Shown here in pieces: positions 8,096 to 18,897 of a stretch of DNA of 21,095 nucleotides. The stretch comes from a virus, in the IMG/VR virus record IMGVR_UViG_3300025137_000368, positions 1 to 21,095 of that record, one strand, 5' to 3'. Positions within the stretch are counted from its first letter, which is position 1. Each line of letters opens with the position of its first letter. The position numbers and the translations under genes were made by a program. Below the pieces are notes generated by a model. It was not told the DNA's origin and made no database searches. It saw only the letters and a list, made by a program, of their open reading frames with translations.

Positions 8096-9382
8096 ATGGA
8101 TATATTAAAAACTCTAAATAATATCAGTTCAGATAGTATTGAGAAGTTAAAAGAGGTTGCACATCTTGATAAATGCACAGCCTGTAATGAGACAATTAAA
8201 ACTAATACTGATACTGATGATATAACCTATTCAAACAATTTAAATGCTTGGATACATCGACAATGTTTGTCGGAATTACCAACTTGTGCTGTTTGCAATA
8301 GGGCTTCCTTACACCTAGAACATAACATCTGCTCAAAGTGTATGAATAGAACAACTATCAGAAGTTATTCGCATAAGCCTGATGGTAGGTTCCACAGAGT
8401 TAATACTAAGAAGAACAAACCGCTTGTATCATATAACAGTACTAGTAGACATGGTTATCCTATTTTACACTTTGGTGTTGAAATAGAGGTTGATGTTAAA
8501 TATGACCAAGATAACTATGACAATGATATTATTTTGGAGGGCAATAATTTTGCTTCCCTAACTAGTATTATAGGTTCTGCATTTCCAAGTACTGAATTGT
8601 TTTACTGCAAGACAGATAGTTCGCTTAGTGATGATGGTATAGAGGTTGTTTCTCATCCTTTTTCTTGGAATTTTTGGAAGACATATGGTCAAACTATTTA
8701 TGACACATTGTTTTCTACAATTCGTAGTTCAGGTTATTATTCAGCCGAGGGAGCGGAAACAGGAATGCATATTCATATTAGCAAGTCTGCAATTAGAACA
8801 AGTCAATTATTAAAGTTGCTTTGGTTCGTTTATGAATCACCTAACTTTATTGAATTGATTGCTCAAAGGACTTCTGACTATGGACTAGCAACCTACTCTT
8901 CTCTAATGGGTTATACACCTGAAAGCTTCAAGGACAAGCTAAGTAAAATGACAGCAATCGCTAAACGAAAGTTTTCGTCTAATGCTGACCGTTACACCGC
9001 TTTAAATATGGAGCCGTCTCAAACTGTCGAGTTTAGGATATTTAAAGGAACATTAAACATTATGACATTGTCAAAAGCAATTGAATTTATTCATAGCTTA
9101 CTGTCATATTGTTCTGATGCTTCAATATCAGATATTGTAAACAAGGACAATGAAAAAACAAGGGTTGATAAATACTTGCAATTCTTATCTAAGAATCAAT
9201 CAAAGTATATGAACTTATGTTTATTTCTAAATAATGAGATGGGATTATCAACTCAAAAGAAAAATAAATACTTTACAGAGTCTAGAACAAGACTCGGAAG
9301 ACGTTTATTGGTTGACCATCCGTTAAGAGAGGGCAGAGTATCAAATCAGTTTAACTTAGATTCAAAGGGAGTATTAGTATAA
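8096..9382 (+). CDS. Amidoligase with N-terminal zinc-finger region
   Basis: 428 residues. Residues 27-82 hold a cysteine cluster (C27xxC30, H54xxC57, C64xxC67, C79xxC82), probably a two-zinc binding module. The rest matches the glutamine-synthetase-fold amidoligase family (as in Pfam amidoligase_2): FGVEIEV at 126-132, KTDSSLSDDGIEVVSHP at 172-188, GMHIHIS at 223-229, RYTALN at 299-304 and VEFRIFKGTLN at 311-321. These give the expected acidic, His and Arg metal/ATP-site residues. Such enzymes use ATP to join an amine to a carboxylate, making amide or isopeptide bonds; the substrate here is unknown. The start has a strong AAAGGAA site. The stop overlaps the ATG of the glutamine amidotransferase gene, so the two are coupled. 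Host peptidoglycan or a peptide conjugate are guesses for the target. Confidence 0.85.
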   Translation: MDILKTLNNISSDSIEKLKEVAHLDKCTACNETIKTNTDTDDITYSNNLNAWIHRQCLSELPTCAVCNRASLHLEHNICSKCMNRTTIRSYSHKPDGRFHRVNTKKNKPLVSYNSTSRHGYPILHFGVEIEVDVKYDQDNYDNDIILEGNNFASLTSIIGSAFPSTELFYCKTDSSLSDDGIEVVSHPFSWNFWKTYGQTIYDTLFSTIRSSGYYSAEGAETGMHIHISKSAIRTSQLLKLLWFVYESPNFIELIAQRTSDYGLATYSSLMGYTPESFKDKLSKMTAIAKRKFSSNADRYTALNMEPSQTVEFRIFKGTLNIMTLSKAIEFIHSLLSYCSDASISDIVNKDNEKTRVDKYLQFLSKNQSKYMNLCLFLNNEMGLSTQKKNKYFTESRTRLGRRLLVDHPLREGRVSNQFNLDSKGVLV

Positions 9383-10146
9383 TGTGTATAGCTATATTAA
9401 AGAAACAAGAGGCGACAGTGCCTAAGGAACAACTAAAGGAATCATTTATATCTAATCCTGATGGTAGTGGTTATATGTTCGCAAACAATGGAAACCTAAC
9501 AATTAAAAAAGGTTTCTTCAAGTTTGATGAATTTTATGATAACTATTCAAGAGATATGAAAAAGTTCAATAATCCAATAGCAATAATTCATTTTAGAATT
9601 ACGACACATGGATTAACGAACAGAACTAATTGTCATCCGTTTTTAATAGATGATTCAATTGGTTTCGCTCATAATGGTATAATTGACTTCGTTAGTGACC
9701 ATAAAAAGAAAAGTGATACAATCATGTTCAAACGTGAAATTCTTCAACAATTACCTGACAATTTTATCAACAATGATATTATTATTAGATTAATTGAAGA
9801 ATCAATTGGTAACTCTAAACTAGTGTTCTTAAACAGAAAAGGCGAGTTTAGAATTGCAAACGAACATAAAGGTCATTGGTCTGATGATAGTGATATATGG
9901 TATTCTAATAATTCGTACTGTGAAATACAGGTTAATCATTGGAATACTAAATACTATGATATGTACAAGGACTATGATGTATTAAATATCACTCATAAAA
10001 AGAAAAAGAAGGTTAACAAGGGAAATAAAGTCGAAAGGACTTCCTGCCGAACTTGTTCAGCCAACCTGTTTACAATTGCAGAGCGTCAAGTTGGACATTG
10101 TTACACGTGCCAACAAGAGTATCAAGACACTAGCAGTCGGATATAA
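9382..10146 (+). CDS. Class II glutamine amidotransferase with C-terminal zinc ribbon
   Basis: 254 residues. The Ntn-type nucleophile Cys2 follows the initiator Met (MCIAILKK), exposed after Met removal. Other family landmarks are DGSGY (27-31), HFRITTHG (70-77), CHPF (84-87), the oxyanion AHNG (96-99) and SDT (111-113). Residues 205-217 are a Lys-rich linker, and the tail has a zinc ribbon (C222xxC225, C240xxC243). It would hydrolyse glutamine and deliver ammonia, probably to the coupled amidoligase. No synthase domain is fused, so it needs a partner. The TAATG overlap with the upstream gene implies fixed stoichiometry. The strong terminator at 10155 closes the unit. Stand-alone glutaminase activity is the alternative. 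Confidence 0.85.
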   Translation: MCIAILKKQEATVPKEQLKESFISNPDGSGYMFANNGNLTIKKGFFKFDEFYDNYSRDMKKFNNPIAIIHFRITTHGLTNRTNCHPFLIDDSIGFAHNGIIDFVSDHKKKSDTIMFKREILQQLPDNFINNDIIIRLIEESIGNSKLVFLNRKGEFRIANEHKGHWSDDSDIWYSNNSYCEIQVNHWNTKYYDMYKDYDVLNITHKKKKKVNKGNKVERTSCRTCSANLFTIAERQVGHCYTCQQEYQDTSSRI

Positions 10147-10154
10147 ACAACAGA

Positions 10155-10187
10155 GGGAGAGTCTAGCAATAGATTCTCCCTTTTTTT
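10155..10187 (+). terminator. Rho-independent terminator
   Basis: An 11-bp stem (GGGAGAGTCTA with TAGATTCTCCC, one G-U) is capped by a GCAA tetraloop and followed at once by seven T residues. It lies 9 bases after the amidotransferase stop. This is the clearest terminator in the window and isolates the two-gene unit from the next region. Confidence 0.93.
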
Positions 10188-16521: not shown

Positions 16522-16862
16522 TGACTAAGAAAAAAGACCCGAAAAGAGTTAGGCAGGGTAGAAGAAATAGGCAACGTGGTGCTGAATTACAAAGGTATGC
16601 TGTTAAGCTAGCTAAAGAATTTAATTTAGAAGCTTATAACAGAGACAGAGGCGGTGCTCAACATGAGAAAGGTGATATAGAAATTGAAGGCAGATACTAT
16701 GGTTGTAAGCGTAGAACCAAGATAGCTAAGTGGTGCAAGCCTGAGAAAGAAGAAGATGGTGTTGTTATAAGAGAAGATTATGGCAAGGCATATATGGTAT
16801 TGGACTATGAGAAGTTTATTATGCTATTATCAATGTTAAAGGAATTTAACGATGACGTATAA
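16521..16862 (+). CDS. Holliday-junction-resolvase-like PD-(D/E)XK protein with altered motif
   Basis: 113 residues, basic. RQRGAELQRYAVKLAKEFNL (18-37) supplies E22, GDIEIEGRYY (51-60) supplies D52, and then GCKRRTK (61-67) supplies K63. This is the layout of phage resolvase-like nucleases, but the usual Glu or Gln two residues before the Lys is Gly61. I recall GxK-type variants in phage proteins annotated this way, so they may still function; catalysis here is uncertain. It would cut branched DNA during recombination or packaging. Its stop overlaps the next start by 11 bases. Confidence 0.65.
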   Translation: MTKKKDPKRVRQGRRNRQRGAELQRYAVKLAKEFNLEAYNRDRGGAQHEKGDIEIEGRYYGCKRRTKIAKWCKPEKEEDGVVIREDYGKAYMVLDYEKFIMLLSMLKEFNDDV

Positions 16863-17244
16863 CCCCGATTTTGATATAGATTTAGAATTTGGTCTTATTT
16901 ATGAAGAGAAACTAAAAAACATATTACAATCAGGGGGCGGCAAAATAGAAGTTAAAACAGAAAGAGATACTTGGGTAGATACAGGTAACATAGCAATAGA
17001 GGTTAGTTATAAAGGTAGGAAATCAGGATTGGCTGGAACTAAAGCTGATTGGTGGTTTCATATTTTAACAATAAGAGGCGATATGATTTCTATGCTGTGT
17101 TTCCCTGTCCCAAAATTAAAATATATTATTAGGGAACTTTTTAAGAAAGAAGAAGTTAGAACTGTAAAAGGTGGTGACAATAACGATTCTGAAATATTAT
17201 TAGTACCTATTAATAAATTAGTAACAACAAGTTTTTTTAAATAA
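16852..17244 (+). CDS. Second PD-(D/E)XK-like protein
   Basis: 130 residues. FDIDLEFGLIYEEKL (7-21; E12, E18), GGGKIEVKTERD (28-39; E33 and K35 as ExK) and DTGNIAIEVSYKG (43-55) match a small marine-phage nuclease family with a TGN...E signature. The acidic D8/D10 and E33xK35 could form the metal site. It overlaps the resolvase-like gene, so the two are made together, perhaps as alternative or cooperating nucleases. A ribosome site AAAGGAA precedes the ATG. After it, five bases lead to a strong inverted repeat. Confidence 0.6.
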   Translation: MTYNPDFDIDLEFGLIYEEKLKNILQSGGGKIEVKTERDTWVDTGNIAIEVSYKGRKSGLAGTKADWWFHILTIRGDMISMLCFPVPKLKYIIRELFKKEEVRTVKGGDNNDSEILLVPINKLVTTSFFK

Positions 17245-17688: not shown

Positions 17689-18024
17689 TTGAGCAAAATT
17701 AAAAATACAAAGAAACAAAGTAAAAGAATATACGATAACCATTATAGTGAAGAGTTAGTAGAAATTTTAACAGCTGATAGCATATTATCAGATGTTTACT
17801 TAGGAAAACAACATTTACAGTTTTCATATAAAACTACAAGAAGAAGGAATTTAGATAGAAGTAGTGATAATTATTTGGTTTACTGTACAAGGTGCAAATT
17901 AACTTGGGAAAACCATTATAGATATAGAGGTAGAGTGTACTATGATAATATACCAACGTATGGAAAGAAAAGAGTAACCTGCGAAAGATGTGAAGAGGAT
18001 TTATTAAATGAACAGAATAACTAA
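17689..18024 (+). CDS. Zinc-finger protein with TTG start
   Basis: 111 residues. A TTG at 17689 is preceded by the near-ideal AGGAGGTG at 17677-17684, which decides the start. The N-terminus is basic (KNTKKQSKRIYDNHYSEELV). The zinc module is C66xxC69 and C98xxC101, separated by 28 residues with GKKRVT before the second pair, as in treble-clef/HNH-like knuckles but without the HNH catalytic residues. It may bind DNA. It overlaps the next gene by 17 bases. Confidence 0.6.
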   Translation: MSKIKNTKKQSKRIYDNHYSEELVEILTADSILSDVYLGKQHLQFSYKTTRRRNLDRSSDNYLVYCTRCKLTWENHYRYRGRVYYDNIPTYGKKRVTCERCEEDLLNEQNN

Positions 18025-18517
18025 ATTAGAACAATCAGTTAGGGAACTTCAAAACCTATGTAAAAAAATGGTAGACACTATTGTAATTCAGAATGACCTA
18101 TTAATGAATGTAGATATTGAAGACCTCTCAAAAGAAAACAAACCAACTCCTAAAGTAAATAACTATAAGGCAAAACCTAAAGATTTAATTATGGTTGTTG
18201 AATATTTTAAAGAAAAAGGTGTGCCCGACCATGAGAATAATGCTACTAAATTTTATAATCATTATGAGGCTAGTGGTTGGATGAGGGGCAAGACTAAGAT
18301 TAAGAATTGGAAAATGTGTTTAAGCTCTTGGGACTTTGATACAGATAAAAAAGCCGATAAGAGTTTGTGGAGTAGAAACACAAATGGTTATGTAGTTGGC
18401 TACTGTGAGAAATGTGGAGATTCTGGAATGGGTAATAGTATATACGACCTTAAAAGCTCTGCTTCTTGTTGTGGTGTCCAATACGTACCAAAGAAACCAA
18501 ATAAAAAGGTGATATAA
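18008..18517 (+). CDS. Replication-accessory candidate with zinc tail
   Basis: 169 residues. The N-terminus (MNRITKLEQSVRELQNLCKK and on) is a coiled coil. Residues 58-110 (KDLIMVVEYFKEKG; FYNHYEASGWMRGKTKIKNW) match the 'FY.HYE..GW.....I.NWK' segment often found in phage helicase-loader and initiator proteins. C133xxC136 with C154-C155 forms a terminal zinc knuckle. Replication or repair loading is inferred from that segment. It is coupled to the next gene by a one-base overlap. Confidence 0.55.
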   Translation: MNRITKLEQSVRELQNLCKKMVDTIVIQNDLLMNVDIEDLSKENKPTPKVNNYKAKPKDLIMVVEYFKEKGVPDHENNATKFYNHYEASGWMRGKTKIKNWKMCLSSWDFDTDKKADKSLWSRNTNGYVVGYCEKCGDSGMGNSIYDLKSSASCCGVQYVPKKPNKKVI

Positions 18518-18897
18518 TGCATAAAGTATTTGTATACGGAACTTTAAAGAAAGGTGGTAGTAATCATTATTTCCTAAAAGGCTCTATGTTTTTAAGAGAG
18601 ACCACATTAAAAGACCATTCTATTTACGCTCCAAGTATGTACGGTTTCCCATTGCTTTTAGAAGATAAAGGTGGTAAAGTTCATGGAGAAGTTTATAAAG
18701 TTAATGATATTACTTTAAGAAGCTTAGATATGTTAGAAAGCGAAGGCTATTTATATAACCGTATTGATAATAAGGAATTAGGTTATCAGTATTATTTATA
18801 TAATTATAATAAGCACTCACGTATTGATAAAAAGAAAGATAAAATTAAAGATGGGATTTGGAAGGTAAGAAATGAAACAATTAAAAGAAATTTTTGA
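18517..18897 (+). CDS. Gamma-glutamylcyclotransferase/AIG2-like protein
   Basis: 126 residues. VFVYGTLKKGGSNHY (4-18) is the diagnostic YGTLxxG loop with N16. HGEVYKV (56-62) and ITLRSLDMLESEGYLYNR (65-82) carry the catalytic Glu74 and downstream Y..R of the GGCT fold. Length matches single-domain family members. Such enzymes release 5-oxoproline from gamma-glutamyl amines or peptides. In this phage it could act on conjugates made by the amidoligase about 8 kb upstream; that link is inferred. It overlaps the last small gene. Confidence 0.82.
   Translation: MHKVFVYGTLKKGGSNHYFLKGSMFLRETTLKDHSIYAPSMYGFPLLLEDKGGKVHGEVYKVNDITLRSLDMLESEGYLYNRIDNKELGYQYYLYNYNKHSRIDKKKDKIKDGIWKVRNETIKRNF

Follow-up and report, generated by a model that had tools for sequence, protein, structure and literature searches.

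The question raised by this locus is whether three genes carried by one phage, encoding an amidoligase (AL), a glutamine amidotransferase (GAT) and a GGCT-like enzyme, belong to a single pathway, and what chemistry they would perform together. A first-pass annotation had read them as a fixed route that makes a product, supplies the ammonia and trims the result, with cell-wall modification or superinfection exclusion as a possible outcome, both of which are hypotheses found in the literature. The window, by which we mean the whole stretch of DNA analyzed, is a virus record of 21,095 bases with a G+C content of 33.5%. Its leftward genes encode head and packaging functions (portal, endolysin-like, TerL, and TerS), and its rightward block consists mostly of small genes, with AL and GAT first and GGCT near the far end (Table 1). 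This gene order is common to the window and G037, a near-complete relative of 41 kb, and the longest contigs among the relatives reach ~39–46 kb. The best of the cultured terminases among the matches listed is only ~25% identical to that of the window lineage, which is too distant for a host to be assigned.

Table 1. Features of the window discussed in the text
Feature	Coordinates	Strand	Description or basis
AL	8096..9382	+	PF12224 amidoligase, 428 aa
GAT	9382..10146	+	Class II glutamine amidotransferase, 254 aa, Cys2 nucleophile
Intrinsic terminator closing the AL-GAT unit	10152..10183	+	Stem and T tail, folding energy
169-aa protein, no assigned function	18008..18517	+	One-base overlap with GGCT
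GGCT/AIG2-like gamma-glutamyl cyclotransferase	18517..18897	+	126 aa, YGTL loop, Glu74; optional partner

The assignment of the first gene to the amidoligases, made originally from its key motifs, holds up by profile, alignment, and model. Its product passes the PF12224 (Amidoligase_2) cut-off of 22 bits narrowly, at 24.2 bits, scores 96.6 bits against phrog_16683, which has no name, and 36 bits against phrog_2443 ("amidoligase enzyme"), and is homologous to the annotated phage amidoligase ctgrD200. A cysteine-rich N-terminal region, with CxxC pairs at approximately residues 27–85, is followed by a ligase core resembling those of glutamine synthetase (GS) and GCS, with the motifs GxExE (G127/E129/E131), D174, E183, HxH (H225/H227), R258, and ExRxF (E312/R314/F316). 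Ten of these residues (E129, E131, D174, E183, H225, H227, R258, E312, R314, and F316) are invariant across 38 diverse sequences. When the AF2 model (pLDDT 88.4, pTM 0.86) was compared with the PDB using Foldseek, all 26 matches at E≤1e-3 were GS-superfamily folds, including YbdK, which was the best match, a YbdK-like protein, glutamine synthetases, gamma-glutamylmethylamide synthetase (GMAS), Dop, and the Pup ligase PafA, with TM-scores to the best matches that are low, at about 0.32–0.35. As modeled, AL is a PF12224-family ligase of the GS/GCS fold and is predicted to form amides in an ATP-dependent manner.

GAT falls just under the Pfam cut-offs for both GATase_4 (21.1 bits; cut-off 23) and GATase_6 (19.2 bits; cut-off 27). 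Despite these sub-cut-off scores, we read it as a divergent class II glutamine amidotransferase, because a profile built from its relatives retrieves GlmS and PurF and its predicted structure (pLDDT 87.2) matches the glutaminase domains of both. The earlier description of a stand-alone Cys2-type enzyme agrees with this, as the protein has the Cys2 nucleophile, no synthase domain, and a C-terminal CxxC...CxxC appendage. Alignment of 39 sequences was also examined for loss of catalytic residues, and the key residues of GAT, like those of AL, are kept: Cys2, Arg72, His85, Asn98, Gly99, and Asp112 are invariant, and Thr75 is present in 37 sequences and replaced by Ser in 2. His76 is variable, with Ser in 14.

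It is clear from our results that the two genes form a unit. Both ORFs were confirmed, and they overlap by the one base that the AL stop codon and the GAT start codon share (gap of −1). The strong terminator attributed to the pair is likewise present, with a 14-bp stem, a T tail, and a folding energy of −24.7 kcal/mol (z = −6.9); among the relatives, the near-identical L002 and L003 retain it, and elsewhere other hairpins, or none, were found in its place. The original observation is confirmed as real and far beyond chance. A profile scan of viral contigs yielded 80 AL loci. Of these, 75 extend at least 700 bases downstream (the window, relatives nearly identical to it, and five phage records that bear names are counted among them), and in 73 the gene immediately after AL is GAT. 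When loci are collapsed at 70% AL identity, 40 of 42 have a GAT-family neighbor and no third gene family is recurrent beside the pair; the next commonest neighbors, at no more than 10 of these 42 loci, are structural or packaging genes of single phage lineages. When whole records were searched, GAT was found in 46 of 48 that bear AL. An adjacent GAT was not seen in a few AL-bearing records, such as that of Clostridioides phage AR1086-1, and no AL-GAT fusion proteins were present in the loci checked. Cellular contigs gave a downstream match to the GAT profile in 30 of 75 cases, a figure to be read loosely because most of the matches are weak (~18–29 bits). The strong ones come from two contigs of Ignavibacteriae genomes, L247 and L248, which carry AL-GAT pairs scoring ~173 bits for AL and ~180 bits for GAT.

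Both genes are under purifying selection, with dN/dS values between the window and L003 of 0.053 for AL (dS 0.35) and 0.042 for GAT (dS 0.19). Their pairwise identities correlate (r = 0.85), as is expected of linked genes. Comparison of the window with L005 gave a dS of 0.43 for TerL, 1.8 for AL, and 2.4 for GAT, and across L005 and L137 the ranges are 0.43–0.52 for TerL, 1.8–2.6 for AL, and ~2.4 for GAT, the AL and GAT values both being near saturation. Because these values are far above those of TerL, they suggest that divergent AL-GAT alleles have been swapped between phages as a pair. The position of the pair in the window looks like an accessory slot, since the first rightward slot of the non-carriers G003 (9061–10005) and G004 (20434–21381) is filled by an unrelated DUF932 protein. 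AL-GAT is, in short, a real and widespread phage unit and a conserved core.

We consider it probable, at roughly 0.6, that AL and GAT make up a single two-subunit ligase that depends on glutamine and amidates a carboxylate, with GGCT as an optional enzyme that removes gamma-glutamyl groups. GAT, following removal of Met1, would use its N-terminal cysteine to hydrolyze glutamine and release ammonia, while AL, as a ligase of the glutamine-synthetase/GCS fold, would use ATP to form an acyl phosphate on the carboxylate and join the ammonia released by GAT to this activated group, producing an amide. We infer that AL and GAT assemble into a complex, that ammonia is channeled, and that a host target is modified during infection, the likeliest being a carboxylate of host cell-wall precursors or of another host molecule, with an altered infected cell as the result. 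GGCT in this lineage probably opens gamma-glutamyl amides that the ligase produces or encounters. The basis for two subunits of one ligase is the predicted family and fold of the proteins, their intact active sites, their near-obligate adjacency, and purifying selection. Against it stand the low TM-scores of AL, the few AL records without an adjacent GAT, and a match of the GAT model to EgtC, which is a class II enzyme that cleaves a gamma-glutamyl amide and supplies no ammonia; simple linkage would also give the same adjacency and correlated divergence.

EgtA of the ergothioneine pathway is a GCS-type ligase, and EgtA-EgtC resembles the window in combining such a ligase with a class II Ntn enzyme. 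The EgtC match (TM up to 0.55 of the target), together with the GCS-type nature of YbdK, would fit a pair in which AL links the gamma-carboxyl of glutamate to an amine, with GAT as the gamma-glutamyl hydrolase that removes the glutamate later and GGCT as a second removal route. We regard such a pair as rather improbable, as GlmS outscores EgtC for the GAT model, the window showed no ergothioneine genes, and making and then cleaving a conjugate needs an intervening enzyme, whereas no third gene is recurrent at these loci.

The cysteine-rich parts of the two proteins bear on what the target might be. At least two CxxC motifs are present in the AL N-terminus (the 8096–8480 region) in 32 of 38 sequences and in the GAT C-terminus (the 10000–10146 region) in 33 of 39, and the protein-modifying enzymes PafA and Dop are among the fold neighbors of AL. 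AL-GAT might on these grounds amidate a host or phage protein, or a nucleic-acid-bound target, guided by zinc-ribbon-like parts of both subunits, which we think unlikely given that the other 6 AL sequences are without the motifs and that the weak matches of the AL profile to LIM domains may merely mirror cysteine spacing, leaving the role in binding metal or target putative. A broader and still doubtful proposal is that AL-GAT is a stand-alone amidating machine of two subunits, dependent on glutamine, whose zinc-ribbon parts on both subunits let it reach a macromolecular target, either a protein or something bound to nucleic acid, in the host cytoplasm, in many unrelated phages and in a manner unlike any characterized modification, with GGCT tuning the outcome in some lineages.

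The GGCT-like enzyme was correctly recognized at the outset, scoring 74.8 bits against PF06094 (cut-off 22.8) with Glu74 aligned across the related sequences compared. Its proposed place in a fixed pathway did not stand. The gene lies 8.4 kb from AL-GAT in the window, and a search of 48 AL-bearing records of other lineages, some of them fragments and many 30–65 kb long, detected it in just 1; GGCT is therefore outside the conserved AL-GAT core and optional. When co-occurrence of the three families was examined in phages, the AL-GAT part was upheld and GGCT as a core member was not. Within the window lineage, all three genes are present together in seven carriers (G000, G001, G002, G037, G018, G027, and G035, with the AL of G035 partial at the contig end), and none of the three was found in seven relatives of 32–44 kb (G003–G009). 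This speaks for one dedicated cell-wall pathway of AL, GAT, and GGCT for superinfection exclusion, a hypothesis published for cassettes of the RIO-1/phiEco32 type (PMC5498523, PMC10580990). The pattern tracks ancestry, however, and is nearly the same for the unrelated genes at 16852–17244 and 18008–18517; because it follows phylogeny, no statistical test was built on the division of near-complete relatives into three with and seven without. Taken with the rarity of GGCT in other AL-bearing records and the failure to find the RimK ATP-grasp and PF14395 ligase in the records searched, this makes a dedicated three-gene pathway, in our judgment, quite unlikely.

The position of GGCT differs among the carriers, which can also be counted in favor of a functional tie to AL-GAT. 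It neighbors the gene of the 169-aa protein (p18008) in the window, G035, and G037, and lies between GAT and an exonuclease gene in G001, G002, G018, and G027. The two types separate in a small unrooted tree of ~120 residues, in which the window type is nearer the GGCTs of phages G038/G039 (loci L100/L101). Two separate acquisitions of GGCT in the window lineage are likely on this evidence, with relocation and fast divergence as an alternative that the tree would also accommodate. The 169-aa protein directly precedes GGCT in the subclade of the window only; in G001 and G002, where GGCT is placed differently, sequences that match it weakly and in part lie elsewhere.

Outside the lineage, the GGCT-bearing phages G038, G039, G041, and G042 carry amidoligases of other PF12224 subfamilies, which the AL profile of the window had not picked up. 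Annotated amidoligases are also present in the GGCT phages Bjorn, 1.208.B, ctwe8250, and C75C1. By exception, no amidoligase was found with GGCT in G040, nor in G034 and G036, two shorter records whose contigs may stop short of the AL-GAT end. Nearly every GGCT in the phages examined thus accompanies an amidoligase, and GGCT as an unrelated passenger is disfavored by the amidoligases of other subfamilies. The suspected link therefore survives in one direction: GGCT is not a fixed partner of AL-GAT, but a phage with GGCT nearly always has an amidoligase.

Phage AL-GAT pairs have already been described and are widespread. Adjacent AL and GATase genes are published for the Methylophilales phages MEP401 and MEP402, and gp105-gp106 of mycobacteriophage Marvin is noted by citation in the same work, which proposes cell-wall modification or secondary metabolism for such pairs (PMC10580990). 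The pairs of Marvin and MEP401/MEP402 are homologous to that of the window, with an amidoligase next to a class II GATase. The identities of MEP402 and Marvin to the window are 20–26% for AL and 26–44% for GAT, the phage backbones differ, and neither Marvin nor MEP402 yielded a GGCT, in line with the majority of AL-GAT phages, whereas the window lineage adds one. A cassette of amidoligase, ATP-grasp, GATase, and GGCT is reported for RIO-1-like phages (PMC5498523), amidoligase, GATase, and ATP-grasp for the LUZ24-like phage UFV-P2 (PMC3890496), and GGCT beside amidoligases for prophages (PMC11253131, PMC11318856); Pseudomonas phage Bjorn and Vibrio phage 1.208.B have gene sets similar to the RIO-1/phiEco32 type. 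The window is like these RIO-1/PSA-HP1, LUZ24-like, and phiEco32-type "peptidoglycan modification cassettes" in having an amidoligase, a GATase, and GGCT in one phage, but its AL and GAT are contiguous and GGCT is distant, so the genes are unclustered. A complete RIO-1-type cassette was rejected, as no RimK-type ATP-grasp was found in 7 records (the window itself being a fragment) and no PF14395 ligase in G000, G001, G002, and G037.

The MurT-GatD operon of Staphylococcus aureus, which amidates peptidoglycan (PMC3267633), likewise consists of two genes for a ligase and a glutaminase acting in carboxylate amidation, an activity that is predicted for the window. MurT-GatD pairs a Mur-ligase relative with a CobB/CobQ-like (triad) GATase, whereas AL is GS-like and GAT is of class II, which places the window outside that family. 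An anti-phage defense system was also considered, and the sole PADLOC match was weak and implausible (Csn2, 16.5 bits). The portions of the literature surveyed report no product for a phage AL-GAT pair. The window adds a new and divergent member to the AL-GAT group, one with a leaner gene set, in which the RimK-type ATP-grasp and PF14395 ligase were not found.

AL-GAT is accordingly a recurrent auxiliary system of phages. A core of two genes, optionally joined by a GGCT that occurs almost only with amidoligases, narrows both the proteins to be purified and the chemistry to be sought. If the product of the pair were identified, the old guess that such phages remodel the host cell wall to exclude competitors would become testable.
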